Origin: Propionivibrio soli
GTDB lineage: Bacteria; Pseudomonadota; Gammaproteobacteria; Burkholderiales; Rhodocyclaceae
Assembly (NCBI RefSeq): GCF_025770765.1
Contig: NZ_JANZKY010000009.1
Location: 1 to 64,000 of the forward strand
Direction of reading: 5' to 3'
DNA length: 64,000 nt
Shown: piece by piece, positions 1 through 13,306 of the stretch
How positions within the stretch are numbered: position 1 is the first letter of the stretch
Layout of the letters: every line of letters starts with the position of its first letter
Position numbers and translations under genes: made by a program
The notes under the pieces: model-generated
Databases searched by the model: none
Told to the model about the DNA's origin: nothing
Seen by the model: the letters and a program-made list of their open reading frames with translations, nothing else

Positions 1-932
1 AACACGGCAAGACGCAGCTCAACCAGGGGTACCTCATTCACCCGCGCACCGACGGCCAAGGCGCACCGCGCGGCGAAGGCTTTGAACTGCGGACCGACCA
101 CCACGGGGCGATCCGGGCCAAGGACGGACTCTTCCTGACCACCGAGGCGCAGACCGGCGCCACCGGTAAGCAGCTCGCGCGCGCGCACGCGCAGAGCCAG
201 CTCGACGCGGCGTACGAACTCACGAAGAGTTTGGCCGACGTTGCCACGAAACAACTCGCGGATACGCTCGAACACGGTCCCGAGACCGTCAGCCCGGACA
301 ATGCCCGGGAAGGGAAAACCACCGCCGGGCACTTGAAACACCACGTCGAGGCCCTCAAGGCCTGGGAGGCGGGGAGCAATACCGATAAGGAAGGCAAGAC
401 GGCGCACGACGAAGCCGGACGGCAACCGCTGCTGGTGCTCTCGGCGCCGGCGGGGATCGCGGCGCTCACGGGGCAGAACCTCTCGCTCGCCACGGGCACG
501 AACCTTGACTTCACCGCCCAGCGCGATACGAACCAGACGAGCGGCCGGCGTTGGCTCTCCAACGTCGGCCAGCACATGAGTCTCTTTGTGAATGGGGTGA
601 AGGACACCATCGCGATGAAACTCATCGCGGCGCAGGGCAAGGTCCAGGTGCAGGCGCAGCACGGGGAGGTCGAGGTCACGGCGGACAAGGATGTGACGGT
701 CACGTCGTGCAAGGGAAAGATCACGATCGCCGGCAAACAGGAAATCCTGCTCACCTCAGGCGGCGGCTACATCCGGATCAAGGATGGGAACATCGAGATT
801 CATTGCCCCGATACGGTGAGTATGCGAGCGGCCAAGCATCCGTGGACGGGGCCGGCACGGATGGATGTGCCTTATCCGCAGTTTCCGCAATCCGAATTTT
901 CCCGCAAGAAACGCTTCAATTTCTCCGCCTGA
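1..932 (+). CDS. vgrG: Type VI secretion VgrG spike protein, C-terminal part (5' end outside window)
   Basis: The reading frame is open from the left edge (codons begin at base 3) to TGA at 930-932, giving about 310 residues. The visible part matches the C-terminal half of VgrG: a stretch with GKTQLNQGYLIHPRTDGQG and RGEGFELRTDHHGAIRAKDG, followed by a DUF2345-type beta-rich region rich in DVTVTSCKGKITIAGKQEI-like repeats. VgrG trimers form the puncturing tip of the T6SS needle and carry cargo effectors at this end. The effector gene follows after 5 bases, so the last residues probably dock that cargo. The N-terminal gp27/gp5 part must lie upstream of the window. Family assignment is firm; the cargo link is inferred from adjacency. 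Confidence 0.9.
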   Translation, partial: HGKTQLNQGYLIHPRTDGQGAPRGEGFELRTDHHGAIRAKDGLFLTTEAQTGATGKQLARAHAQSQLDAAYELTKSLADVATKQLADTLEHGPETVSPDNAREGKTTAGHLKHHVEALKAWEAGSNTDKEGKTAHDEAGRQPLLVLSAPAGIAALTGQNLSLATGTNLDFTAQRDTNQTSGRRWLSNVGQHMSLFVNGVKDTIAMKLIAAQGKVQVQAQHGEVEVTADKDVTVTSCKGKITIAGKQEILLTSGGGYIRIKDGNIEIHCPDTVSMRAAKHPWTGPARMDVPYPQFPQSEFSRKKRFNFSA

Positions 933-937
933 AGAAC

Positions 938-3274
938 ATGCTGATCAGCCCTCCTTTTTTGCCCCCACGCAATGCAGATCAAACGGATGAGGCATGGCTT
1001 GAGACGGCCATGACCAGCGTGGCGACGGGCCATATCCCGGGTTGGGGTGACGAGACCATCGCAGGCAGCTACCCGGTCAGCCTCGAGCTTGGTTGGCATG
1101 GCGGTAGTCATCTTGTTGCTCCATCTATCGGCAATAACCTCGCCCTTCCTGTACGTGCCATTGCAGATGGTCGAATAGCCTATGTACGCCGCCCGACGGC
1201 TCGCACCACAGACGCTTCACCGCTCAACTATGGCGCAACAGCTCAGGGCAATTGCTGGACGAGTGACGGAGTGATACTAATCCGCCACGAAACCGATATT
1301 GGCGCCAACGCGCAAGGGCAAGCAACTACGGTCGTCTTCTATTCCCTATACATGCATCTCGAAAGCATTGCCGAAGGAGTGCGTAACAACCGGCCAATCT
1401 ATCGCAAAGACGAAATCGGCGCGGCTGGGTTTATCTACGGGCAACCCCATCGCATCCATTTTGAAATCTTTTGCGACCACGAGAATCTTCGTCTGCTCAC
1501 GGGACGTACCGAAGGAGATTTGGCGGTAGACCGGGATGGACGCTGTGATGCGGTATTCGGCGAGTTGTATTTCCGTCTTCCGGCGGGAACGTCGATCTAT
1601 CCATCCCAGCCGCTTGATAACGATCCAGTTGCACACCACCGTCCGCCCAATCAACCGGTTACCCAGCCTGCCGTACCGCTAGTCGCCACAAGCAGGACGA
1701 CGGAAGCGCTGATCGTCGGTCTACGCTATGCCTCTGGCGATGGTGTAGCCAACCAGCGGGGCAGCGCTTATCTGACGACCTACCGTGAAGATGGAACGCC
1801 TATAGGCGAACCACTCTGCGAGCAAGACGCCGAGTACAACCTCTATACCCGAGCCACGGCAATCAGCACGTCCTATCCGGTGGGCGCCCGTCCGGCGCCG
1901 AGCGCGGTGTATGAACTTTTGCGCTTCGGACGTATCCTCGACACGGCGCACGAAACGCTCACTCCGGCTAATGTGCCCCACTGGCGTCGGGTCCGCCACT
2001 CGGGGGGCGAGGGCTGGGCGAACCTAAACGCTCCCGATGTCCGCAAATTCAGTGATGCGGATTTCCCGCACTGGAAAGGCTGGCGCTTCGTCGACGATAG
2101 TGCCGATCAAGACAGCCGCTGTGATTCACCGACGATCCGGTCGTGGTTTGACAAGAACAAGGATGGCATCGTCGACGCCGCTGAGCCCAGGGAAAGCCTG
2201 TGCGACCAAACGATACTGCGCAAACTCGACCACTCCATCTGCCGTTTCCCGACCGAATGGCGCTCCTCAACACTGGACCAGCGCTGGGGTTGGCTCAAGA
2301 GCAAATCTCTGGAATGCTCTAACCCATTGAGCGAAGACGATTTCACCGCTTTTAAGGCGCACGCCGAAGCATTGTGCTTCTGGGAACGGGTTCCTGCCCA
2401 AAGCCCCCCGTTACCCGACAATCCGTGGCGCTTTCATCCACGCAGATTCATTCAGTTGTTCAGGAGATGCGGATGGCTAAGCCAAAGCGAGTTCGCCCAG
2501 TGCTTTCCAAGAAGAACGTTACATCTGGCAAACACGTCATTCCACCCTCAGTCTGTTGGATGGCAAACAGCGAACACTAGGGCAGATAGATGGAAATTGG
2601 CCTTTAATAGGACAACAAGAAAATACGGAATCGGAGCAGCGAGAAATCGGCTGACCCATTTTTTTGCTCACGTCATACCAGAGACGGGCTATTTAAGCCA
2701 GGTTAAGGAAGGCGCGGGTGAAAACCAACCTTATAGCCCATATTACGGTAGAGGGCTAATACAGCTTACGCGCCTAGACAATTACAGAAAGTACGGGAAG
2801 TTCCGCAAGTTTTCAATGGAACCCCCTCCCCCTCAATATCCCAACCTAGGGTGGGATCCAGATGAGCTAATAGCCAGGAGCAATACAGACTATAACGTTG
2901 AAAACTGTGCTGACAGTGCAGGGTTTTATGTTGCACAACGAGAAAATATGCTAAGCCACCTAGATGCTGGAGTTGAACAGGAAAATGCAATCATTGCAAG
3001 CAAAGACGTCAATGGCTATGTGGCAATAGAAAATCTGAATAGTTTGGATTCAAGGCTTCAATCGGTGATGTATCTAAAAAGTATCTTACTCGACCAACCT
3101 TTTCCGGCAACTCCCGAATTATTGAACTTTACATGGAGACGGAATAGCCAAAAAGAGGTAGTAATCGGTTCTAATGGACAACCAGAAATGACGGGAAATC
3201 CGCCACACGTCAAAAAGAAGTTTTATCCCACAGAGCATCATTTGAGCATTAACTTTGAACACCAAAAGCCATGA
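938..3274 (+). CDS. Putative T6SS cargo effector: M23-like peptidase plus GH19/lysozyme-like domain
   Basis: A protein of 778 residues. I place the start at ATG 938, five bases after vgrG; the frame is open further upstream but overlaps vgrG there. Residues about 45-190 resemble an M23 (LytM) fold, with ALPVRAIADGRIAYVRRP and PHRIHFEIFCD; the usual HxH is written HRIH (H171, H174), so activity is uncertain. An EF-hand-like loop, DKNKDGIVDAAE, starts at D405. The C-terminal third resembles GH19 chitinase or phage endolysin: HFFAHVIPETGYL with candidate catalytic Glu582, then YYGRGLIQLT. This suggests a peptidoglycan-degrading toxin that cuts both peptide and glycan. The last 750 bases are clearly AT-richer than vgrG. 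It overlaps the next gene by ATGA. Confidence 0.8.
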   Translation: MLISPPFLPPRNADQTDEAWLETAMTSVATGHIPGWGDETIAGSYPVSLELGWHGGSHLVAPSIGNNLALPVRAIADGRIAYVRRPTARTTDASPLNYGATAQGNCWTSDGVILIRHETDIGANAQGQATTVVFYSLYMHLESIAEGVRNNRPIYRKDEIGAAGFIYGQPHRIHFEIFCDHENLRLLTGRTEGDLAVDRDGRCDAVFGELYFRLPAGTSIYPSQPLDNDPVAHHRPPNQPVTQPAVPLVATSRTTEALIVGLRYASGDGVANQRGSAYLTTYREDGTPIGEPLCEQDAEYNLYTRATAISTSYPVGARPAPSAVYELLRFGRILDTAHETLTPANVPHWRRVRHSGGEGWANLNAPDVRKFSDADFPHWKGWRFVDDSADQDSRCDSPTIRSWFDKNKDGIVDAAEPRESLCDQTILRKLDHSICRFPTEWRSSTLDQRWGWLKSKSLECSNPLSEDDFTAFKAHAEALCFWERVPAQSPPLPDNPWRFHPRRFIQLFRRCGWLSQSEFAQCFPRRTLHLANTSFHPQSVGWQTANTRADRWKLAFNRTTRKYGIGAARNRLTHFFAHVIPETGYLSQVKEGAGENQPYSPYYGRGLIQLTRLDNYRKYGKFRKFSMEPPPPQYPNLGWDPDELIARSNTDYNVENCADSAGFYVAQRENMLSHLDAGVEQENAIIASKDVNGYVAIENLNSLDSRLQSVMYLKSILLDQPFPATPELLNFTWRRNSQKEVVIGSNGQPEMTGNPPHVKKKFYPTEHHLSINFEHQKP

Positions 3275-3705
3275 TTATAAAAAACAAATATTTTCTTTTT
3301 TGTTTGTTGGTTCTCTTCTATGGAAGCACCCGTGCTGACGTTGGCATCGACGTATTGTGTCTTTCGTCAACCGACCCAAAACCTGTCAATATGGAGATGC
3401 GCTTCTATTTTGACAAAGATGCTAAATGGATGACGGGATTTGTCAGATATAATTCAAAGAAAGCCATTCCCATTGTTCTTAAAAGCAGTGTGCGCGACGT
3501 GACGTCTCCGGATGCACCCATTGAGCACACAGATCTATGGTTAGAGATCGTAGATGGGAAGATCACAGGCGCTTACGAGATCACTATGCAGGGCACACAA
3601 ATTCCTTCGGCCACCTATGAAAACTACACGAGCAGAAGGAAGTTTTTCTTTCTTCTAAATAACGACATCGAAAGAGCTCCGGCAACCGGGTGCCAGTGGA
3701 AATAG
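3271..3705 (+). CDS. Small exported protein, candidate immunity to the upstream effector
   Basis: A protein of 144 residues whose ATG overlaps the effector stop codon (ATGA at 3271-3274), implying coupled translation. The N-terminus, MIIKNKYFLFCLLVLFYGSTRA, is a clear Sec signal peptide with a cut expected after TRA, so the mature protein is periplasmic. I recognise no family. Periplasmic location fits protection against a cell-wall hydrolase, and T6SS effector genes are typically followed by cognate immunity genes, but this role is inferred from position only. Composition is AT-rich like the effector tail, suggesting acquisition as a unit. Confidence 0.7.
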   Translation: MIIKNKYFLFCLLVLFYGSTRADVGIDVLCLSSTDPKPVNMEMRFYFDKDAKWMTGFVRYNSKKAIPIVLKSSVRDVTSPDAPIEHTDLWLEIVDGKITGAYEITMQGTQIPSATYENYTSRRKFFFLLNNDIERAPATGCQWK

Positions 3706-3785
3706 TGGACTAAGGGCCACGCCCCAAAGCATAGCTTCACAAAAAAATTGCCAAAGCCAAAAGGGAAAATCGCCCCACCAACATA

Positions 3786-4247
3786 GTGAACAGTGACTAT
3801 GAAGGCAATCTGCATATTTTTTTCTTCTTGTCCATCACGGCATATGCCTGTGGTGGCCATGATGTAAAGGAGAAAATGGCTCGCCAACTAATGAAAGATG
3901 ACGAATTCACAACCTTTGTTTGTGGTGATGAAAAACAGTGTCGTGATAACGTCGAAATCTTTACATCGGCACTAAATTTTAGAGAAAGACCAGCGAACAA
4001 AACCAACTCGCTTAAGATATGCCTGGTGGAATCTATCGTGAAGGCCAGAAATGGATATACCGGCATATTCATTAAAGGAGAATCTGGCGCGATCACTTAT
4101 GAGTTCTCTTTTTTCGGTTCTGGTATCGGCCCGACAAAGAGGTTAATTAATGGATATTTCACATTGGAAGGTCGCGAAATTATTGAAAGTGGCGTTGTGG
4201 AAAAAACGACGTTCGAATGGAACGGAAAGCACTACACAAGTAAGTAG
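3786..4247 (+). CDS. Second small exported protein, possible immunity paralogue; signal peptide may be frameshifted
   Basis: The open frame from GTG 3786 gives 153 residues, beginning with a non-standard polar stretch before a hydrophobic run FFFLSITAYA. An ATG at 3799 in the +1 frame starts MKAICIFF, which looks like the proper start of a signal peptide. One extra T in the seven-T run at 3817-3823 would join it in frame to FFLSITAYACGG. So either the GTG start is used, or the tract carries a real or sequencing frameshift. The mature part has four Cys and no family I know. It lies in the AT-rich tail of the vgrG island, 80 bases after the first candidate immunity gene. Confidence 0.6.
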   Translation: MNSDYEGNLHIFFFLSITAYACGGHDVKEKMARQLMKDDEFTTFVCGDEKQCRDNVEIFTSALNFRERPANKTNSLKICLVESIVKARNGYTGIFIKGESGAITYEFSFFGSGIGPTKRLINGYFTLEGREIIESGVVEKTTFEWNGKHYTSK

Positions 4248-4571: not shown

Positions 4572-4586
4572 ACATGTCCGATATGT
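4572..4586. promoter_or_regulatory. Candidate GntR/FadR-family operator upstream of the TRAP operon
   Basis: The 15-mer ACATGTCCGATATGT is an imperfect palindrome (ACATRTC.GAYATGT symmetry), 71 bases before the dctP start. A close relative, CATGTCTTATATGT, lies upstream of the GntR-type regulator gene at 10488-10501. Matching sites before a catabolic operon and its neighbouring regulator are what local GntR control would look like. Inference; no binding data. Confidence 0.55.
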
Positions 4587-4657
4587 GACTAATAACAACC
4601 GGTCTTATCGGGTGTGCCGCGTGTACGAGAGAATATTCGCAACTTAAAGGGGGGAAC

Positions 4658-5677
4658 ATGGCTAGTCTGGCTAGACGGGGCGTGCTGCGCGCGCTCGTTT
4701 CAGTTTCGTTGTTGACCGGGATCGGCGCCGCGCCGGTCGCTTCTTACGCCGCACCGGAGTTCGTGTTCAAGTACGGCAACAATCTGCCGGTTACGCATCC
4801 GCTCAACGTCCGCGCGAAAGAGGCGGCGGACCGCGTGTTCAAGGAGTCGAACGGACGGCTCCAGATCCAGATTTTCCCGAACAATCAGTTGGGCGGCGAT
4901 ACCGACATGCTGGCGCAAGTGCGCAATGGCGGCATCGACATGTTCACGCCGTCTGCCCTGGTTATTGCGACACTCGTGCCCTCGGCGGCGATCAATGCGG
5001 TCGGCTTCGCTTTTGCCGACTACAAGCAGGTCTGGGCAGCGATGGACGGCAAGGTCGGCGAGCACGTTCGTGAGAAGTTCGAGAAGGCGGGGCTGCACGG
5101 CTTGGAGCGCATGTGGGACAACGGTTTCCGCCAGGTCACCACGAGCAACAAGCCGATCAATTCGGCACAGGATATGGCGGGCCTCAAGATCCGCGTTCCG
5201 GTGAGCCCGCTCAGCGTGTCGATGTTCAAGGCACTCGGGTCGGCGCCGGCCAGCCTGCAGTTCTCCGAAGTCTATCTCGCCCTGCAAACCAAGGTCGTCG
5301 ACGCTCAGGAGAATCCGTTGGCAATCATCCAAACGGCGAAGATGAACGAGGTTCAGAAGTACTGCTCGCTGACCAACCACATCTGGGACGGCTACTGGTT
5401 TGTGATCAACGGCCGCTCGTGGAAGTCGCTGCCGCCGGATCTGCAGAAGATTTTGACCACCTCGTTCAATGAGGCCGGCCTGAAGCAACGTGAAGACATC
5501 CGCGCCCTTAACGACTCGCTGCAAAACGAGTTGAAGGCGAAGGGCATGGTGTTCAACACGACGACGCCGGAGACCTTCCGTGAAGCCTTGCGCAAAGCCG
5601 GTTTTTACGCCGAATGGCGCCAGAAGTTCGGCGAAGAAGCGTGGACCTTGCTTGAGCAGTACGTCGGCAAGCTGTAA
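4658..5677 (+). CDS. dctP: TRAP transporter periplasmic solute-binding protein (DctP family)
   Basis: A protein of 339 residues, the usual family length, behind a strong ribosome site (AAAGGGGGG, 4647-4655 region). An N-terminal signal with paired Arg (LARRGVLRAL) and a cut near SYA could use Sec or Tat. The DctP fold is shown by FKYGNNLPVTHP, QIQIFPNNQLGGDTDMLAQV and MAGLKIRVP, the Arg of which normally salt-bridges a substrate carboxylate. It should capture an organic acid in the periplasm and deliver it to the fused membrane subunit encoded 15 bases downstream. The adjoining BKACE and racemase-like enzymes suggest the ligand is an unusual keto or amino acid, but the sequence does not identify it. 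The symbol denotes the family, not a C4-dicarboxylate specificity. Confidence 0.9.
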   Translation: MASLARRGVLRALVSVSLLTGIGAAPVASYAAPEFVFKYGNNLPVTHPLNVRAKEAADRVFKESNGRLQIQIFPNNQLGGDTDMLAQVRNGGIDMFTPSALVIATLVPSAAINAVGFAFADYKQVWAAMDGKVGEHVREKFEKAGLHGLERMWDNGFRQVTTSNKPINSAQDMAGLKIRVPVSPLSVSMFKALGSAPASLQFSEVYLALQTKVVDAQENPLAIIQTAKMNEVQKYCSLTNHIWDGYWFVINGRSWKSLPPDLQKILTTSFNEAGLKQREDIRALNDSLQNELKAKGMVFNTTTPETFREALRKAGFYAEWRQKFGEEAWTLLEQYVGKL

Positions 5678-5692
5678 CCAAGGGAGCGGGCC

Positions 5693-7576
5693 ATGCAATC
5701 GCCTTCCGCAAGTCTGGCACTCGAAACGCCCGAACAGGAAGAGGTCACGGCGCTCAAGCGGGTCGTGACCCCGATCGACAAGTTCTTGGGCTGTAGCGTG
5801 GAGCTTGTCGCCGGCACCCTGGTTTTTGCCGAAATTGTCGTTCTGCTTTCGGGCGTCACGTCGCGCTACCTGCTGCACAGCCCGCTCGTCTGGGCCGACG
5901 AACTTGCTTCGATTCTGTTCCTCTGGCTCTCGATGCTCGGTGCCGTAGTCGCTTTGCGGCGCAGCGAGCACATGCGGATGACGGCCATCGTCTCCAAGAT
6001 GTCGGCGAGCAATCGTGCGTTCATGGATACCTTGGCGATCGTGGCTTCGCTGGCTTTCCTGCTGCTGATCTTCGGCCCGGCATGGGAGTACGCCAGCGAG
6101 GAAGCAATGATCACGACCCCTGCGCTTGAAATCAGCAACATCTGGCGCGCAATCGCGATCCCGCTCGGTTGCGGGCTGATGGCCGTTACATCGCTTCTCC
6201 GCCTGTGCCTCGTAGGAAAACGGATCAACGTCATCACCGCCGCCGTGGGCGTCGTCCTCGTCGTCGCCCTCTTCTACATGGCCGGGCCGTCGCTCAAGTC
6301 GCTGGGCAAGACCAACCTGCTCATCTTCTTCGTCGGCGTCGTCGGTGCCAACGTGTTTGCCGGCGTGCCGATCGCGTTCTCGTTTGCGCTCGCGACCTTC
6401 GGCTATCTCGGTTTGACGACGCGTACGCCGATGTTGGTGATGGTCGGGCGTCTTGACGAAGGCATGTCGCATCTGGTGCTGCTCGCCGTGCCGCTTTTCG
6501 TCTTCCTCGGCCAATTGATCGAGATGACGGGCATGGCGCGGGCGATGGTGCGCTTCCTCGCCAGCATGCTGGGACACGTAAAAGGCGGACTGTCGTACGT
6601 ACTGATCGGCGCGATGTACCTCGTGTCGGGCATTTCGGGTTCGAAGACGGCCGACCAGGCGGCCGTCGCTCCCGTGCTCTTCCCCGAGATGAAAGCACGC
6701 GGCGCGAAAGCGGGCGACCTCGTCGCCCTGCTCTCGATCACCGGTGCGCAGACCGAGACGGTGCCGCCAAGCATCGTCCTGATCACCATCGGTTCGGTCA
6801 CCGGCGTGTCGATCGCCGCGTTGTTCACCGGCGGCTTGTTGCCGGCGTTCATCGTCGGTATGGCGTTGTGTTTCGTCGTCTGGCGGCGCAATCGATCGGA
6901 AGACTTGAGCCAGGTGAAACGGGCAACGAAGAAAGAGATCTTTCAGCTCTTCGTCGTCGCCCTGCCGGCACTGGTTCTACCGTTCCTGATCCGCTTCGCC
7001 GTCGTCGGCGGCGTGGCAACGGCGACGGAAGTTTCGACACTCGGCATCGCCTACTCGGTGCTCGCGGGACTACTGCTCTACCGGCAGTTCGACTTCAAGC
7101 GCGCCGCGCGCATGCTCGTCGAGACGGCTTCACTTTCGGGCGCCATCATCTTCATCATCGGCGCGGCCACTTCCATGGCGTGGGGCCTTACGCAGTCCGG
7201 CTTTTCGCAGGATCTGGCGCATCTGATGAAGCAACTCGGCGGGCAGACGACGTTCATGATCGTTTCGATCTTCGCCTTCATCATTCTCGGCAGCGTCCTC
7301 GAAGGCATCCCGGCCATTGTGCTCTTCGGCCCCCTGCTCTTCCCGATCGCCAAGGAGATTGGCGTCAATGAGGTGCACTACGCCATGGTCGTCATTCTCG
7401 CCATGGGCGCCGGCCTCTTCTCGCCGCCGTTCGGTGTCGGCTACTACGGCTGCTGCGCGGTGAGCAAGGTCCATCCTGACGAAGGTATCCGCTACATCTG
7501 GGGTTACCTGGCGGCCCTGGTGTTCGGCCTGTTCATCGTCGCCTTCGTACCCTGGATCTCTACCGGATTCCTCTGA
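5693..7576 (+). CDS. TRAP transporter fused small and large permease subunits (DctQM)
   Basis: A protein of 627 residues. Residues about 25-200 are the four-helix DctQ part (PLVWADELASILFLWLSMLGAVVALRR is typical), and about 205-627 is the DctM part with roughly twelve helices. DctM signatures include GVPIAFSFALATFGY, GISGSKTADQAAVAPVLFPEM and GAGLFSPPFGVGYYG. The fusion is common in TRAP systems. It would couple uptake of the ligand bound by the preceding protein to a sodium gradient across the inner membrane. The ATG lies 15 bases after the dctP stop, with GGGAGCG as ribosome site. Confidence 0.9.
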   Translation: MQSPSASLALETPEQEEVTALKRVVTPIDKFLGCSVELVAGTLVFAEIVVLLSGVTSRYLLHSPLVWADELASILFLWLSMLGAVVALRRSEHMRMTAIVSKMSASNRAFMDTLAIVASLAFLLLIFGPAWEYASEEAMITTPALEISNIWRAIAIPLGCGLMAVTSLLRLCLVGKRINVITAAVGVVLVVALFYMAGPSLKSLGKTNLLIFFVGVVGANVFAGVPIAFSFALATFGYLGLTTRTPMLVMVGRLDEGMSHLVLLAVPLFVFLGQLIEMTGMARAMVRFLASMLGHVKGGLSYVLIGAMYLVSGISGSKTADQAAVAPVLFPEMKARGAKAGDLVALLSITGAQTETVPPSIVLITIGSVTGVSIAALFTGGLLPAFIVGMALCFVVWRRNRSEDLSQVKRATKKEIFQLFVVALPALVLPFLIRFAVVGGVATATEVSTLGIAYSVLAGLLLYRQFDFKRAARMLVETASLSGAIIFIIGAATSMAWGLTQSGFSQDLAHLMKQLGGQTTFMIVSIFAFIILGSVLEGIPAIVLFGPLLFPIAKEIGVNEVHYAMVVILAMGAGLFSPPFGVGYYGCCAVSKVHPDEGIRYIWGYLAALVFGLFIVAFVPWISTGFL

Positions 7577-7652
7577 AAAACCCCGTTTCCTGACCTGAGT
7601 CGGTGTGCGTTTCGGCGCCCACCGGCCAGGCCACCACCAAGGACTATGACAT

Positions 7653-8462
7653 ATGGGTAAATTGATCATCTCCGTCGCGCCGGTATCGGCGGCGGATACA
7701 CGCGTCATTCCCGCCGAAGTCGCCATGGAGGCCGTCGCCTCGGCACGGGCCGGCGCCGCGCTGGTGCATCTGCATGTGCGCGACCAAACCGGCAAGCTGA
7801 CGCCCGACGTCAGCGACTTCGAAGATACGATCAAGCGCATTCGCGCCGGGTCGGACATCATCCTGCAAGCCTCTTCTGGCGGCATTTCCAACATGAACAT
7901 GGAGCAGCGTTGCGCGCCGCTGCTCAAATGTCCGCTCGTCGAAATGACATCGCTCAACGGCGGCTCGGTGAACCTCGGCGACGCCGTCTATCCCAATTCG
8001 CTACCGGACATCCGCTATTGCGCGCAGCTTGCCGTCGAGAAAGCCATCGTTCCCGAATACGAGGTTTTCGAAGTTGGCATGATCAACGCGATCTGCGAGC
8101 TGGAGCCAGAACTGAAGCTGTCGCGACCGTTGCTGATCAATACCGTCTTCGGCCATCGCGGCACGATGCCGGCGACGATCGACGCTCTGGTCCACTTCCG
8201 CCACTTCATTCCGAAGGGCGCGTTATGGGGCGTGACGCACTTTGGCCGGCGCGACTTCTCCTTCATCGCCGCCGCCGTCGGCATGGGTGCGGATCTGGTG
8301 CGCATCGGTTTCGAGGACAGCAAGTTCCTCAACGCCACCGAGCGCGCTGAAAGCAACGTCCAACTCGTCGAAAAACTCGTCGCCATCACGCGCGGCATGG
8401 ACCGCGAAATCGCCACGCCCGACGAAGCCCGCCAGATTCTCAACATCCGGCCCAAGCGCTGA
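7653..8462 (+). CDS. Beta-keto acid cleavage enzyme (BKACE, DUF849 family)
   Basis: A protein of 269 residues in the family of 3-keto-5-aminohexanoate cleavage enzyme (Kce). These zinc enzymes convert a beta-keto acid plus acetyl-CoA into acetoacetate and a new acyl-CoA. Visible marks are the metal-binding VHLHVRD (H39, H41), SSGG, EMTSLNGGSVNLG, and the late Glu in VRIGFEDS, which supplies the third ligand in Kce. BKACE substrates vary widely and cannot be read from sequence. It follows the TRAP genes and precedes two small enzymes, so it probably acts on the imported compound or a product of it. Confidence 0.88.
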   Translation: MGKLIISVAPVSAADTRVIPAEVAMEAVASARAGAALVHLHVRDQTGKLTPDVSDFEDTIKRIRAGSDIILQASSGGISNMNMEQRCAPLLKCPLVEMTSLNGGSVNLGDAVYPNSLPDIRYCAQLAVEKAIVPEYEVFEVGMINAICELEPELKLSRPLLINTVFGHRGTMPATIDALVHFRHFIPKGALWGVTHFGRRDFSFIAAAVGMGADLVRIGFEDSKFLNATERAESNVQLVEKLVAITRGMDREIATPDEARQILNIRPKR

Positions 8463-8474
8463 AAGGAAATCACC

Positions 8475-8912
8475 ATGTTGCACAACCTGAACCAGCGGGC
8501 GGCGCGATCCGTGGTCGAGCACGCCCTCAAACTCTCGAACGAAAAGTATGGCGGGCGCGCACTCAGCGTGGCCGTCTGCGATCGCAACGGCTTCCTGCTC
8601 GCGTTCGCCCGCACCGACGACGCCAAGGTGCTCAGTATCGAACTGACGCAGCGCAAGGCCTATACGGCGGCGCGCATGGGCGTGCCGACACAATCGTTCC
8701 TGCAGCGATTGCAGAAAGAGAACCTGAACATCGCGTACTTCGCCGATGAGAAGTTCTCCGCGATGCCCGGCGGCATGCCGATCTACAACGAAGACAAGCA
8801 ATTGCTCGGTGCGCTCGCCATTGGCGGCATCTCCGCCGCGGAGGACCAGGAGGCGGCCGAAATTCTCGCGGCCGCGCTCGACGACGGCATGAAGAACAAC
8901 CAGTTTTGCTGA
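8475..8912 (+). CDS. GlcG/HbpS family (DUF336) protein
   Basis: A protein of 145 residues with no signal peptide, 12 bases after the BKACE gene. It has the DUF336 pattern: ALKLSNEKYGGRALSVAVCD, KAYTAARMGVPT and MPGGMPIY, with the closing EEDQEAAEILAAAL-like helix. Family members include the haem-binding HbpS, GlcG of the glycolate locus, and proteins found beside diol and aromatic-acid catabolic genes. The molecular role in such operons is unclear; an accessory or haem-related function is the cautious reading. Confidence 0.85.
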   Translation: MLHNLNQRAARSVVEHALKLSNEKYGGRALSVAVCDRNGFLLAFARTDDAKVLSIELTQRKAYTAARMGVPTQSFLQRLQKENLNIAYFADEKFSAMPGGMPIYNEDKQLLGALAIGGISAAEDQEAAEILAAALDDGMKNNQFC

Positions 8913-8921
8913 GGTGAAAAA

Positions 8922-9578
8922 GTGAAAGCAGCCATATTCCATACGAGTTCGGCCACCCTCGGACTTTTTCAGTCGCTCGCGGCGAAGACCATGCCCGATG
9001 TCGAAGTGATGCACATCGTCGAAGACTCGATGATTCGCGAAGTGATGAAGAGCGGCGGACCGACGCCCTCGATCAACGCCCGCATCGCCGGTTACGTGCA
9101 GGCGGCGGAACGCGCCGGTTGTTCGGTTTTCATGACCGCCTGTTCGTCGATCGGTGCCAGTGTCGAGCACTGCCAGGACTTGACCTCGATGCCAGTGACC
9201 CGCGTCGACGAAGCGATGGTTGAAGAAGCGATCCAGAAAGGTCCGCGCGTCGCCGTGCTCGCGACCGTCGAGACGACGTTGAAGCCGACCCTCGAATACA
9301 TCGAGCGCAAGGCCAAGCAGTCCGGGAAGGAAATCGTCATTCAGGCCAAGCTGATGTCCGAAGCCTTCAAGGCGCTACTCGACGGGGACAACAAGACGCA
9401 TGACGCGATCGTCTCTGCCGGCCTCAAGGAAGCAATGGCGTCGGCCGACGTCGTGGTGCTCGCGCAAGCATCGATGGCTCGCGTGATGGTCGGCATGGAT
9501 GCGCCGACGGTGCCCGTCCTCACGTCGCCGGAAAGAGGCGTCACCCGTTTGAAGGAACGCCTCGACGCGCTCGTCTAG
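8922..9578 (+). CDS. Asp/Glu racemase superfamily enzyme
   Basis: A protein of 218 residues starting at GTG 8922 behind GAGGTG. The fold is that of Asp/Glu/hydantoin racemases and arylmalonate decarboxylase: AAIFHTSSATLGLF, a nucleophile-type Cys in TACSSIG (C74), and GPRVAVLATVETTLKPT. The second catalytic Cys expected near VVVLAQASM (about 183-184) is Ala-Ser. True two-base racemisation is therefore doubtful and a decarboxylase, isomerase or lyase activity is possible. It is the last gene of the operon and is followed by a strong terminator. Confidence 0.8.
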   Translation: MKAAIFHTSSATLGLFQSLAAKTMPDVEVMHIVEDSMIREVMKSGGPTPSINARIAGYVQAAERAGCSVFMTACSSIGASVEHCQDLTSMPVTRVDEAMVEEAIQKGPRVAVLATVETTLKPTLEYIERKAKQSGKEIVIQAKLMSEAFKALLDGDNKTHDAIVSAGLKEAMASADVVVLAQASMARVMVGMDAPTVPVLTSPERGVTRLKERLDALV

Positions 9579-9604
9579 TTCAAGAGTTGGCTCTCGCCCT
9601 CTAG

Positions 9605-9639
9605 GGCAGGTACCGGGTAACCGGAACCTGCCTTTTTTT
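9605..9639 (+). terminator. Rho-independent terminator of the TRAP/BKACE operon
   Basis: GGCAGGT pairs with ACCTGCC, with an inner CCGG/CCGG helix and GTAA loop, followed by seven T residues. It lies 27 bases after the racemase-like gene. Confidence 0.9.
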
Positions 9640-9741
9640 GAACGCGAGAAGGTGAGGAGACCGCAGGGCGGAGGTGCCGCGAGGGAAAAGCATGAACAAC
9701 CAGCGAGCGCTTTGCTGCACACGGGCAGCAGCGGCTCGGCG

Positions 9742-10443
9742 CTAAACGGCGGCGCGCGTTTCCTTCCAGGTGGCGATATGCGCCTTCTCCGCTTCGATGG
9801 CGGCCATCTTGTCGCGAGCGGCAATGGCGGCGACAAGCTTGCGATGCGTGGTGAGCGCGCGCGAGCCGTTGATCGTCGGCGCAAAGATATCGACGACGAA
9901 GTTGTACATGTTCTCGATCAGGTGGTTGTGCGTGAGCTGCGCCAACGTACGGTGAAACTTGAGGTCGCACGCGTTGAGCACGGCGAGGTCCGTCTCATTG
10001 CGCTTCGCTAGGCCCTCATATTCCTCATGCACGGCCTTGAGCTGCGCGATGTCCTCGTCCGATGCGCAGTCGATCACCGTGGTCACGACGCCGATCTCCA
10101 CCATCTCGCGCAACTGGATGAGTTCGCCCGAGTCCGTGTTGTTGATGATGAGGCTATAGATCAGCGGATCGAAAATCTTCTTGTTCGCCGACGTGGCGAT
10201 GTAGGTACCGTCACCGTGGATGATCTCGACAATGCCGAATGCATCGAGAATCTTCAACGCCTCGCGTACCGAGCCGCGCCCGATCCCGAGGCTTTCCGCC
10301 AGCGCCTGTTCGCTGGGCAGCGGATCGCCGGGCAGGATCTTCTTCTGGATCAGGATGTTCTTGATGCTCTCGATGACCAGGTCGACCGCAGAGACTTTTT
10401 TTGTTTTTTCGAAGAGATCGACCGCCTTCTTGACGCGCGCCAT
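9742..10443 (-). CDS. GntR family, FadR subfamily transcriptional regulator
   Basis: A protein of 233 residues. Residues about 20-85 form the winged helix (GDPLPSEQALAESLGIGRGSVREALKIL), and about 100-225 the all-helical FCD ligand domain with metal-binding-type residues in CDLKFHRTLA and THRKL. Such proteins usually repress catabolic operons until an organic acid binds. It faces the TRAP/BKACE operon tail to tail, and a palindrome resembling the one before dctP sits about 45 bases upstream of its own ATG. It is the likely local regulator and probably regulates itself. Confidence 0.88.
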   Translation of the reverse strand: MARVKKAVDLFEKTKKVSAVDLVIESIKNILIQKKILPGDPLPSEQALAESLGIGRGSVREALKILDAFGIVEIIHGDGTYIATSANKKIFDPLIYSLIINNTDSGELIQLREMVEIGVVTTVIDCASDEDIAQLKAVHEEYEGLAKRNETDLAVLNACDLKFHRTLAQLTHNHLIENMYNFVVDIFAPTINGSRALTTHRKLVAAIAARDKMAAIEAEKAHIATWKETRAAV

Positions 10444-10480
10444 CTGATTTCAAGCCCCACACAAACTGTTTATAAAGTTC

Positions 10481-10501
10481 GACATCGCATGTCTTATATG
10501 T
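10481..10501. promoter_or_regulatory. Candidate operator upstream of the GntR-type regulator
   Basis: The segment holds GACAT-CGC-ATGTC, a perfect five-base inverted repeat, overlapping CATGTCTTATATGT, which resembles the site at 4572-4586. On the minus strand a TATAAA (10470s) suitable as a -10 element lies just downstream, so the site would overlap the -35 region. This suggests autoregulation; it is inferred from sequence only. Confidence 0.5.
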
Positions 10502-10693: not shown

Positions 10694-11479
10694 TCAGAAC
10701 GCCGGTACAACCGCTCCCTGATACTTCGTCTCGATGAATTTCTTGACGTCGGGGGTATGCAACGCGGCGATCAGCTTCTTCACTGCGTCGGCGTCCTTGT
10801 TGTCCGGGCGCGACACCAGAATATTGGCATACGGCGAATTGGCGTTCTCGATGAACAACGCGTCACGCGTCGGCACCAGCTTCGCTTCCAACGCGTAGTT
10901 GGTGTTGATCAACGCGAGGTCGACCTGGTCGAGAACGCGCGGCAGCGTCGCGGCTTCGAGTTCCTTGATCTTGAAGCCCTTCGGGTTTTCCGAAATGTCC
11001 TTCACCGTGGAGAGGATGTTCTTCGGGTCCTTGAGCTTGATCAGGCCGTTGTCGGCCAGCAGGATCAGCGCACGGCCTCCGTTCGACGGATCGTTCGGGA
11101 TCGCGATGGTCGCGCCCTTCGGCAGCTCGGAGGGATTCTTCACTTTCTTGGAATACGCGCCGTACGGCTCGACGTGCACGTTGGCGATCGAAACGAGGTT
11201 GGTGCGCTTGTTCTTGTTGAACTCGTCGAGATACGGCTTGTGCTGGAAGAAGTTCACATCGATCTTCTTCTCCCAGACCTGGACGTTCGGCTGCACGTAG
11301 TCGGTGAACACCTTCACTTCGAGCGTGACGCCTTCCTTGGCCAGGGCCGGCTTCACGAATTCGAGGATCTCGGCGTGCGGCACGGCGGTCGCGGCAACGG
11401 TCAGTTTGGTCTGCGCTTGCGCGCCGAACGAGACGGCCGCCAAGGCGGCGGCGAAGAGAGCGGTAAGGCGAAGTTTCAT
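10694..11479 (-). CDS. metQ: Methionine-type ABC transporter substrate-binding protein (NlpA/MetQ family)
   Basis: A protein of 261 residues with signal peptide MKLRLTALFAAALAAVSFGAQA. There is no lipobox Cys, so unlike E. coli MetQ it is probably soluble in the periplasm. Family marks are VAATAVPHAEILEFVKP, DVNFFQHKPYLDEF and IAIPNDPSNGGRALILL. It should bind methionine or a related ligand and hand it to the metI/metN products, whose genes lie just upstream on the same strand. Some NlpA proteins bind other small ligands, so substrate is assigned by family and context. Confidence 0.88.
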   Translation of the reverse strand: MKLRLTALFAAALAAVSFGAQAQTKLTVAATAVPHAEILEFVKPALAKEGVTLEVKVFTDYVQPNVQVWEKKIDVNFFQHKPYLDEFNKNKRTNLVSIANVHVEPYGAYSKKVKNPSELPKGATIAIPNDPSNGGRALILLADNGLIKLKDPKNILSTVKDISENPKGFKIKELEAATLPRVLDQVDLALINTNYALEAKLVPTRDALFIENANSPYANILVSRPDNKDADAVKKLIAALHTPDVKKFIETKYQGAVVPAF

Positions 11480-11618
11480 GGTTTTGTATCCTTTATGAGG
11501 TTGGGTCGAGACGTTTCACGCGCGTTCCTTGTGGGCTCGCGGTCAACATCGGAAATCGGTATGCGCGATAGCAAGACAGGCGGTCATTGCGGTTGTCATT
11601 GCATTCGTCATTCGGCAC

Positions 11619-12293
11619 TCAGCTACGCGTAAATCGGTGTACCAGCCGGTCACCGAACATCTGCAGCAGTTGCACGAGGATCAGCAGGATGGCGACAGTA
11701 ACGAACATGACTTCGGTCTGGAACCGCTGATAGCCGAAGCGGATCGCCAGGTCGCCGAGGCCGCCACCACCGATGACGCCCGACATCGCGGCGTATGAGA
11801 CAAGCGCAATCGCCGTCACCGTCGTCGCGGCGAGCAGGCCGGGAAAGGCTTCCGGCAGCACGGCGCCGAAGACGATCTGGCGCAGCGTCGCGCCCATCGC
11901 CTGGCTCGCTTCGATAATGCCGCGGTCAACTTCGCGCAGCACGTTCTCGACAAGCCGCGCGAAGAACGGCGTCGCCCCGACCACCAGCGGCGGAATCGCG
12001 CCGACGACGCCGATCGACGTGCCGACGAGCGCCACCGTCACCGGAATCATCAGGATCAGCAGGATCACGAAGGGCATCGAGCGCAACAGGTTCACGAGCA
12101 GCGACAGGAAGCTGTACACCTGCTTGTGCGCAAGCAATTGCCGTGGCCCGGTGAGGAACAGCACGATGCCGAGGGGGAGACCGAAGATGATGGTGAACAC
12201 GAGCGAGCCGCCGACCATCGTCAGCGTCTCTACCGTTGCCGTGCCGATGTCGGCCCAGTCGATGGCCGCAAAGAGTTCGAGGAAAAGGCTCAT
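11619..12293 (-). CDS. metI: ABC transporter permease (MetI family)
   Basis: A protein of 224 residues starting at ATG 12293, which overlaps the metN stop (ATGA), giving translational coupling; a longer open frame exists upstream but lies within metN. It shows about five to six membrane helices and the permease EAA-type segment EASQAMGATLRQIVFGAVLPEA that contacts the ATPase. It is the inner-membrane channel of the methionine-type importer. The gap of about 140 bases to metQ holds no gene. Confidence 0.9.
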   Translation of the reverse strand: MSLFLELFAAIDWADIGTATVETLTMVGGSLVFTIIFGLPLGIVLFLTGPRQLLAHKQVYSFLSLLVNLLRSMPFVILLILMIPVTVALVGTSIGVVGAIPPLVVGATPFFARLVENVLREVDRGIIEASQAMGATLRQIVFGAVLPEAFPGLLAATTVTAIALVSYAAMSGVIGGGGLGDLAIRFGYQRFQTEVMFVTVAILLILVQLLQMFGDRLVHRFTRS

Positions 12294-13306
12294 GATCCGA
12301 GCACCTCGCAGTGAATGGATTGTTCGGCGAAGGCCGCTTCGACGCGCTCGACGTCTTCCGCCGAGCCCATCACCTGCACAGTAAGCTGCCCGTACGGCGT
12401 GTCCTTGATGCGGCCGATAACGCCTTCGAGAATGCTGAAGCTGACGCCGAGCTTGACCGCGATGCGCTCCAGCACCGGCTGGTAGGTGATCTCGCCGAGG
12501 AAGGTCACGCGCAGCAGCAGGCCGGAAAGCCCGAGGGTCGAAGCAAGGTCGGCGCTCTCCTCGTGATGGCTGCTCTCGCGCACCATGGCACGCGTGACCG
12601 GGTGCTTCGGATGCAAAAGCACGTCGGTCACCAGCCCGTGTTCGGCGACACGGCCCTTGTCCAGCACGGCCACCCGGTCGCACACGGCGCGGATCACGTC
12701 CATCTCGTGCGTGATGAGCACGATCGTCAGCCCGAAGCGCTGATTGATATCGCGCAGCAACCGCAGGATCGCCTGCGTCGTCTGCGGATCAAGCGCCGAG
12801 GTCGCCTCGTCGCAGAGCAGAAGTTTCGGATGGTTGGCCAGCGCACGCGCAATGCCAACGCGTTGTTTCTGCCCGCCCGAGAGCTGCGCCGGGTACTTGT
12901 CACGATGGTCCTTGAGCTCAACGAGATCGAGCAACTCGTCGACCCGCGCATCCATCTCCGCCTCGGTGTATTTGCCCGTCAGCTTGAGCGGAAAGCGCAC
13001 GTTGTCCCCGACGGTCTTGGCGCCGAGCAGATTGAAGTGCTGGAAGATCATGCCGGTCGTGCGTCGGTAGGCCAGCAACTCTTCTTTCGAGAACGCGGTA
13101 ATGTCGCTGCCATCGACCAGAATGCGGCCGGCATCCGGCCGTTCGAGCAGGTTCAGGGTACGGATCAGCGTGCTCTTGCCGGCGCCCGACGCGCCGATGA
13201 TGCCGAAGACTTCACCTGGTTCGATGCGCAGGTTGATGTCCGAAATGGCGGGGATGGGGTTGCCGTCTACGACGTAGTGCTTGGAGACGCCTTCAATATC
13301 AATCAC
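12290..13306 (-). CDS. metN: Methionine ABC transporter ATP-binding protein
   Basis: A protein of 338 residues. Walker A is GASGAGKST, signature LSGGQKQRVGIARAL and Walker B LLCDEATSALD. A C-terminal NIL/ACT-like domain (about 265-338), which in MetN binds methionine and inhibits transport, is present. It is the first gene of metN-metI-metQ. The roughly 100 bases upstream showed no recognisable SAM riboswitch or MetJ box, so how the operon responds to methionine is not apparent. Confidence 0.92.
   Translation of the reverse strand: MIDIEGVSKHYVVDGNPIPAISDINLRIEPGEVFGIIGASGAGKSTLIRTLNLLERPDAGRILVDGSDITAFSKEELLAYRRTTGMIFQHFNLLGAKTVGDNVRFPLKLTGKYTEAEMDARVDELLDLVELKDHRDKYPAQLSGGQKQRVGIARALANHPKLLLCDEATSALDPQTTQAILRLLRDINQRFGLTIVLITHEMDVIRAVCDRVAVLDKGRVAEHGLVTDVLLHPKHPVTRAMVRESSHHEESADLASTLGLSGLLLRVTFLGEITYQPVLERIAVKLGVSFSILEGVIGRIKDTPYGQLTVQVMGSAEDVERVEAAFAEQSIHCEVLGS

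Follow-up and report, generated by a model that had tools for sequence, protein, structure and literature searches.

L-Threonate is known to be broken down by LtnD, OtnI, OtnK and OtnC to dihydroxyacetone phosphate (PMC12540250). Pathways for D-apionate and 3-oxo-isoapionate that involve OiaK and OiaX have also been described (Carter et al., 2018, cited in PMC6302742), and a member of the BKACE (DUF849) family has been proposed, on mutant data, to cut a beta-keto acid derived from a sugar acid in the deoxyribonate catabolism of Pseudomonas simiae (PMC6365646). The DNA studied here, referred to as the window, comprises the first 64,000 nucleotides of contig NZ_JANZKY010000009.1 of Propionivibrio soli (assembly GCF_025770765.1). 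Near its start it bears a five-gene operon that encodes a TRAP (tripartite ATP-independent periplasmic) transporter, a BKACE member, a GlcG-like protein and a single-cysteine protein of the Asp/Glu racemase superfamily, and that faces a FadR-type regulator. Judging from the sequences, and with slightly more confidence than doubt, we favour the reading that this operon would serve the 3-oxo-tetronate (Otn) pathway as a feeder module.

In the proposed scheme, for which we infer the substrate class, the assignment of enzymes to steps and the repression, the transporter (DctP and DctQM) would import a small hydroxy-oxo acid, in other words an acid sugar that has already reached the oxidation level of an oxo acid. 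The BKACE member (BKACE-I), the GlcG-like protein and the single-cysteine enzyme would convert the imported acid to 2-oxo- or 3-oxo-tetronate, which OtnI, OtnK and OtnC would take to dihydroxyacetone phosphate and CO2; these three enzymes are encoded elsewhere in the genome of the window and in the same locus in the family of Citrobacter. One base is able to move a proton from a carbon to its neighbour, as happens in a keto isomerase, and at a guess the single cysteine might serve as such a one-base shuttle in a keto isomerisation or epimerisation. It is likewise a guess that BKACE-I might cut or rearrange the carbon skeleton by stabilising the enolate of a beta-keto acid. Since OtnI, OtnK and OtnC occur in the relatives without LtnD and with these three enzymes instead, the simplest view is that the trio would make oxo-tetronate from an acid that is already oxidised. 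A first-pass annotation of the window had left the imported acid and its route open; given the otn linkage in relatives, the route most likely ends in the 3-oxo-tetronate pathway.

The linkage is seen in the Citrobacter family, where the BKACE-I profile matched 21 of 392 sampled genomes, from 13 of 154 genera. All 21 loci, selected by BKACE-I and read over stretches of 12-19 kb, carry OtnK, OtnC, OtnI, GlcG and the racemase-like gene (GlcG of L161 came to light through tblastn alone, and OtnK and OtnC were called in pieces in L168). No LtnD-like or DenD-like open reading frame (ORF) was found in these stretches, and the genes flanking the loci are not conserved. A BASS transporter is present in 17 of the 21, one of which (L161) also has a distant TRAP upstream. 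The other transporter type, a TRAP of the clade to which the transporter of the window belongs (TRAP1), is encoded in four loci from two genera (L165-L168), with DctP 56-59% and DctQM 62-70% identical to those of the window. In these four loci DctP-DctQM-GlcG-racemase-like-BKACE runs divergently from otnK-otnC-otnI, beyond which lies a DeoR gene; they thus hold the five families of the window in a different order.

The genome-neighbourhood search that had been proposed for this gene set therefore returned matching sets in four genomes, and novelty of the set as such was dropped. The earlier statement that no pathway is known with this exact set still stands in so far as none has been characterised in the literature searched, but the set is not isolated. 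No paper on the cassette, nor one joining BKACE with 3-oxo-tetronate, was found in that literature, in which subscription papers were thinly covered.

The BASS form of the cassette was also read in Escherichia coli (L005; NZ_CP041996.1, 96361-113318), in the order otnK-otnC-DeoR-otnI-BKACE-BASS-GlcG-racemase. The racemase-like gene of the cassette has DNA matches in 21 of 5426 complete E. coli genomes, of which this one locus was read. Its island, which also holds an integrase, insertion sequence (IS) fragments and an IncFII repA remnant, lies between tnaCAB and tRNA-Sec. In a Citrobacter-family locus (L162, 1933-4925), a PTS IID ORF and a Zn-type alcohol dehydrogenase ORF are co-directed just upstream of the otnK cassette, and ORFs of the same lengths are present in L163. 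In wider samples, the class gave one match to the racemase-like profile among 369 genomes (E 1e-30) and the order three among 379 (E 1e-40), counting the genome of the window each time; the other two in the order, near 1e-50, are at the level of paralogues. The BKACE-I profile matched 11 of 297 genomes of the family of the window at 1e-50, only three of them at 1e-97 or below, and 2 of 398 in the phylum sample, namely the genome of the window and G1370, from the Citrobacter family.

The genome of the window passes the NCBIfam equivalog cut-offs for OtnK (649.9 against 350), OtnC (325.7 against 250) and OtnI (403.5 against 325). All three proteins of one of the TRAP1 loci (L165) also lie above their cut-offs, as do OtnK and OtnC of a congener (G026) and of a Citrobacter locus (L003), and OtnK of E. 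coli. Among 59 genomes searched, the genome of the window included, 28 belong to the genus, and eight of these (again including its own) have an orthologue of the racemase-like gene (E <= 6.1e-113). OtnK is present in all eight compared with 8 of the 20 without the orthologue (one-sided p 0.004, uncorrected for phylogeny or genome completeness, which counts against the favoured reading); if G005, whose otnK is split by a contig end and falls below the cut-off, is scored as absent, p becomes 0.029. In the tallies given here L002 and G027 count as one genome, L003 and L149 are counted once and L004 is left out.

The loci of the congeneric orthologues are mosaics. In G026 and G005 a second BKACE type (BKACE-II, 33% identical to the E. 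coli BKACE), TRAP1 (DctP 70-71%, DctQM 74-75%), a small protein of ABM fold and the racemase-like gene are directly followed by otnK; in G026 otnC comes after otnK and FadR stands opposite, and in G005 the contig ends within otnK. G012 has the same set of BKACE-II, TRAP1, ABM and racemase-like genes, with no otn genes in the stretch, and G021 has another TRAP, an ABM protein, the racemase-like gene and FadR. LacI, an unrelated TRAP (TRAP2), BKACE-I and the racemase-like gene are found together in G027 (L002), G017 (L031) and G023 (L032), with a VOC protein in L031 and L032 and GlcG between BKACE-I and the racemase-like gene in L032. The idea that GlcG, ABM and VOC proteins substitute for one another at one step was dropped, because L032 has both GlcG and VOC. 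In G014 (L045), where the only match is a more distant racemase-like gene (1.6e-28), its companions are a TRAP, a FadR-like gene and a BKACE that shares 51% identity with that of E. coli.

Several further observations speak against a feeder role. The otn genes of the window genome are unlinked to the operon (contig C14 against C36), and their operon has its own TRAP as well as LtnD-like and DenD-like genes, as labelled by reading (a Pfam scan placed the DenD-labelled gene in the NAD-dependent epimerase family). Since that unlinked operon has a TRAP and an LtnD-like gene of its own, the co-occurrence of OtnK may reflect it. The scores of OtnI from E. coli (282) and from Citrobacter L003 (291) are below 325, although OtnI is still their best family. 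The loci of G012 and G021 are without a linked otn gene, and no GlcG was found by tblastn in L002, L031 and L045, which are congener loci with a BKACE-I-type gene. In L162 the Zn-type alcohol dehydrogenase, co-directed and 296 bases upstream of otnK, may be a linked dehydrogenase of another family. Four of the 14 plasmid neighbourhoods viewed, from Rhizobium and Sinorhizobium, have relatives of the racemase-like protein beside FAD oxidoreductases, and the protein family is therefore not specific to the Otn pathway. R158, R179 and N219 of DctP are present in all TRAP proteins compared and are thus uninformative on specificity. Finally, OtnI, OtnK and OtnC alone suffice for 2-oxo-tetronate, which leaves the three extra enzymes unexplained.

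BKACE-I (7653-8462, plus strand) scores 226.3 bits against PF05853 (cut-off 24.8), over profile positions 23-273 only, with the first 22 positions unmatched. Its residues H39, H41, R217, E221 and D222 are invariant in 12 of 12 aligned BKACE members; they presumably correspond to the zinc ligands and catalytic residues H46, H48, R226, E230 and D231 of Kce, and would give BKACE-I the zinc ligands and the catalytic Arg and Asp of the family. Kce (2y7d) is also the closest structure by sequence. These features would suit a canonical BKACE. The imported acid would then be, or become, a beta-keto acid with an alpha hydrogen, from which BKACE-I and acetyl-CoA would yield acetoacetate and an acyl-CoA of shorter chain; preparing the substrate would fall to the racemase-like protein and GlcG, and the otn linkage would mark a second branch. 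The cut proposed in P. simiae (PMC6365646) points the same way, and Kce and the deoxyribonate BKACE share with BKACE-I the family PF05853, the Zn-site residues and the sugar-acid context.

We regard canonical chemistry as unlikely, while granting it appreciable weight. No CoA-transferase, CoA-ligase, thiolase or thioesterase was recognised in the operon of the window or is annotated in the E. coli region, nor is there any among nine co-directed flanking ORFs scanned in 5 of the 21 Citrobacter-family loci (L154, L157, L158, L159 and L162), the rest of those genomes not having been searched; one of these ORFs, in L157, is a malic enzyme, and another is the Zn-type dehydrogenase of L162. A succinyl-CoA ligase subunit lies downstream of L003 on the opposite strand and probably belongs to a resident tricarboxylic acid cycle operon. 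Aligned with four canonical members, BKACE-I has a first loop shorter by seven residues. Furthermore, BKACE-I has Phe139, as mapped by hand, at the position of the catalytic Tyr145 of CcaKce. A Phe is likewise present in BsfD, a flavophos biosynthesis enzyme of the DUF849 family that takes a phosphonate substrate and transfers acetyl without cleavage (PMC12871164). Three other BKACEs of the genus (L091, L092 and L096) also have Phe there, however, and Phe139 accordingly decides nothing on chemistry; it was dropped as a mark of divergence. BsfD is like BKACE-I in its family and in this Phe, and unlike it in the substrate, the non-cleaving transfer and a loop enlarged by about 20 residues. Acetyl-CoA-dependent chemistry in BKACE-I is an assumption: no linked CoA gene was seen in the regions scanned, and a DUF849 member has other chemistry. 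The motifs GHRG and THFGR are found in the five closest members, with GHEG and THFHR in L045. The genome of the window yielded a single BKACE gene.

The racemase-like protein (8922-9578, plus strand; PF01177, 70.6 bits, cut-off 31) was modelled from four sequences with a pLDDT of 92.4, and the model superposes on aspartate racemase 1jfl with Z 22.1 and a root-mean-square deviation of 2.4 over 207 residues. Fold and profile thus both place it in the Asp/Glu racemase superfamily. C74 is kept and the second catalytic position is Gln (Q182) in 22 of 22 proteins picked from the loci studied. The same pattern holds in all of the 31 members of another set, made up of the window protein, nine plasmid relatives and 21 Citrobacter-family proteins; the window protein belongs to both sets, and L149 is a repeat of L003. 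In a hidden Markov model alignment, Q182 stands where allantoin racemase 5lfd has its second Cys. An ordinary two-Cys racemase, of the kind acting on aspartate, glutamate, hydantoin or allantoin, was rejected because of this missing cysteine, and a two-base racemase is unlikely since C74 is invariant and the second position is Gln in both sets. The label racemase-like therefore holds for family and fold, but not for the catalytic pair.

This pattern bears on two other explanations. In the first, the racemase-superfamily protein would epimerise an imported tetronate or oxo-tetronate and thereby let the other stereoisomer into the Otn pathway, with BKACE-I and GlcG accessory or acting on a side product. 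The clear racemase fold and the linkage to otnK, otnC and otnI suit such stereochemical salvage, whereas the Gln in place of the second Cys for two-base racemisation does not, and the presence of GlcG in all 21 loci, selected by BKACE-I, fits a core rather than an accessory role; we hold it to be improbable. In the second, the protein would decarboxylate a malonate-type acid without cofactor, like arylmalonate decarboxylase (AMDase), and feed BKACE-I. Here the single-Cys arrangement is shared, AMDase 2vlb is in the list from a fold search with the model (Z 16.4), and AMDase genes are reported near TRAP genes (PMC4996985). AMDase keeps the other cysteine, C188, with G74, however, which is the reverse of the window protein, its motifs are absent, and no neighbour gene points to a malonate-type substrate, so that this explanation is very improbable. 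Identity with AMDase itself was rejected, as the protein has TACSSIG and VLAQASMA and is without the AMDase motifs LMGTSLSF and ILLSCGGL (PMC4996985) and the G74/C188 pair. Racemases and decarboxylases of the Asp/Glu racemase superfamily came up in the fold search; that other families did not appear in its list is no argument against them.

The closest named relative of the racemase-like protein, 78% identical, comes from a Propionivibrio metagenome-assembled genome. On plasmids, 164 records have a relative, and among the 14 neighbourhoods viewed four (L006, L007, L114 and L115) have a DUF1537 kinase or otnK in the flanks. The genome of the window has a second single-Cys gene of the superfamily (G000:C34:229298-229936; L037, 9293-9955), which adjoins ORFs resembling transketolase halves, as labelled from their sequences, and TRAP genes. 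In two congeners (L042, 9700-14025, and L043) a single-Cys family gene is likewise found with transketolase-like halves, a TPP (thiamine pyrophosphate) enzyme and TRAP genes; the TPP enzyme of L042, the one scanned, has three TPP_enzyme domains.

The transporter gives some indication of the imported acid. DctP (4658-5677, plus strand; PF03480, 281 bits) is followed by a fused DctQM permease (5693-7576, plus strand; PF04290 DctQ, 87 bits, and PF06808 DctM, 329 bits), and the three components and the carboxylate-binding Arg of a DctP-family transporter are all present. The Arg noted in the first-pass annotation is R179, the counterpart of R147 of SiaP, and R158 is present too. In a review of a screen of TRAP binding proteins, 2-acetolactate is among the ligands (PMC5812351). 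The structure closest to DctP is 4OAN, at 60.5% identity, with 18 of the 23 pocket columns compared identical (P98, A100, V102, I242 and Y246 differ); these columns were chosen around the pocket positions of SiaP. 4OAN, an R. palustris protein, is reported to have been modelled with (S)-2-acetolactate, and presumably formed part of the same screen. Its identity to the DctP proteins of SDR-bearing TRAP1 operons (L053 and L057) is higher, at 68-75%, than to DctP of the window. D81, W243 and D244 occur in all TRAP1 members compared but in none of the other three TRAP proteins, and N42 is replaced by Gly in the transketolase-linked TRAP1 members. A single-sequence model of DctP was poor (pLDDT 34.9) and was not used.

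TRAP1 is found in three settings on plasmids. The first is LacI-TRAP1-VOC-RuBisCO-like-DUF1537 kinase (L052, L054 and L055; DctP 65-68% identical to that of the window), to which L059 adds a locus of LacI-TRAP1-VOC only (DctP 69%). In the second, halves of a transketolase stand with SDR or reductase genes (L056, L058 and L060; DctP 49-51%), and in the third an SDR gene stands with or near a DUF296 protein (L053 and L057; DctP 53-56%). The best NCBIfam matches of the RuBisCO-like protein and kinase of L052 are OiaX and OiaK, with scores of 427 and 299 that are below the cut-off of 700 as given; the operons of L052, L054 and L055 are probably a variant of the apionate pathways. LacI (52-69%) and VOC (75-78%) of these operons recur in the congener loci that have BKACE-I and the racemase-like gene. 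The DUF296 (PCC) proteins are encoded at 11644-12501 of L053 and 3126-3980 of L057, near the TRAP1 genes; their fold is related to that of acetolactate decarboxylase, and an acetolactate-shaped ligand would be in keeping with this.

Acetolactate is 3-oxo-isoapionate minus two hydroxyls. The TRAP1 settings fit an alpha-hydroxy-beta-oxo acid, or its precursor, as the imported compound, and from the presumed ligand of 4OAN the imported ligand is probably acetolactate-shaped. The imported acid may possibly be the branched acid 3-oxo-isoapionate itself. This bears on a further alternative, in which BKACE-I would be a retro-aldol dehydroxymethylase acting on a branched C5 oxo-apionate, cleaving off formaldehyde without CoA by way of the Zn-bound enolate that BKACEs already use. 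On this account 3-oxo-isoapionate minus formaldehyde is 3-oxo-tetronate, the substrate of OtnK, and 2-oxo-apionate minus formaldehyde is 2-oxo-tetronate, the substrate of OtnI; the task of the single-Cys enzyme would be to turn the 2-oxo and 3-oxo forms into each other. Such chemistry would explain why BKACE-I and the racemase-like gene stand in congeners with the LacI and VOC of RuBisCO-like operons, why neither an LtnD-like nor a CoA gene was seen in linkage, and why the ligand reported for a TRAP1 relative is acetolactate-shaped. If true, it would be a further route for acids of the apiose type, replacing the RuBisCO-like protein and kinase. We consider it distinctly unlikely.

The GlcG-like or HbpS-like protein (8475-8912, plus strand; PF03928, DUF336, 95 bits) is 54% identical to its Citrobacter and E. 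coli members. The characterised DUF336 proteins bind heme, cobalamin or formaldehyde (PMC8153426). The formaldehyde sensor EfgA shares PF03928, and hand mapping places R46, K61 and D124 of the window protein at R42, K57 and D121 of EfgA, with Gly117 at S114; of the formaldehyde-site residues K57, S114 and D121 the Lys and Asp are thus kept and the Ser is replaced. Residues of this site are in any case said to be largely conserved across DUF336 (PMC8153426). If BKACE-I released formaldehyde, GlcG might bind or sense it.

The favoured feeder module is laid out as a compact unit. The gaps from dctP to the racemase-like gene are 15, 76, 12 and 9 bases, all five products score above the Pfam gathering cut-offs, and an intrinsic terminator follows (9603-9640, plus strand), with a hairpin of 13 pairs at 9603-9634, a T run and an energy of -23.8 kcal/mol in a 50-base fold. 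The regulator gene, on the minus strand at 9742-10443, encodes the GntR (PF00392) and FCD (PF07729) domains and is a probable local repressor. The operon-like unit, strong terminator, opposing GntR/FadR regulator and carboxylate-type Arg of the first-pass annotation are thus borne out, and its reading of a catabolic TRAP/BKACE/GlcG/racemase-like unit with a local FadR-type regulator is supported. A sigma-70 promoter scan gave 0 matches, against 1.3 expected from shuffling.

The ends of the region annotated in that first pass, 4572 and 10501, coincide with two copies of CATGTCNNATATGT. One operator-like site, CATGTCCGATATGT, lies upstream of dctP (4573-4586, plus strand) and the other, CATGTCTTATATGT, upstream of the regulator gene (10488-10501, plus strand). 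These are the only two exact copies in the 4.76-Mb genome, and six matches with at most one mismatch were found (two exact and four with one mismatch) against three for a backwards control. In the congener G021 (L034) an identical 21-base stretch precedes a non-orthologous TRAP operon with a racemase-like gene and a FadR 79% identical to that of the window. FadR proteins 76-79% identical stand opposite racemase-like operons in G012, G021 and G026. The patterns used gave no such site in L033, L035 or L036, although the FadR proteins of L033 and L035 are 76-77% identical (the contig of L036 ends with no FadR gene within), and its support is therefore limited to the window and L034. Because the two sites flank the unit, are unique in the genome as exact copies and recur in the stretch of L034, the FadR-type regulator most likely acts locally on the five genes. 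It would bind both sites and be released by the substrate or an intermediate.

Upstream of the operon, the window starts with the C-terminal part of a VgrG (T6SS_Vgr and DUF2345) within 3-4247, a region that looks like a type VI secretion cargo cassette. It also has a 780-residue reading frame (932-3274) without a Pfam match at 1e-3 and small ORFs (3271-3705 and 3786-4247) without a Pfam or NCBIfam match. Beyond the regulator, a MetQ-like lipoprotein and then permease-like and ATPase-like ORFs, the latter two labelled by reading, lie on the minus strand at 10694-13306 and would form a methionine-type ABC importer beside the operon.

The cassette matters in that it points to a nutrient without assigned chemistry for some gut-type bacteria, in the Citrobacter family and some E. 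coli. Three of its enzymes lack an assigned reaction, and one of these represents a single-Cys branch within a superfamily that is known for racemases with two Cys. As the trio is placed before enzymes of known product, its joint reaction is directly testable. Compared with the D-apionate pathways, the operon of the window is without the RuBisCO-like gene and the OiaK-like kinase, and has in common with operons encoding OiaX-like and OiaK-like proteins the TRAP1 transporter. The Otn-linked loci differ from the L-threonate route in having a TRAP1 or BASS transporter, and where that pathway has LtnD, the 21 linked loci, in which no LtnD-like gene was found, have BKACE-I, GlcG and the single-Cys gene instead. 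What these loci and the genome of the window share with the described Otn pathway is OtnK, OtnC and OtnI, with dihydroxyacetone phosphate as the end product.

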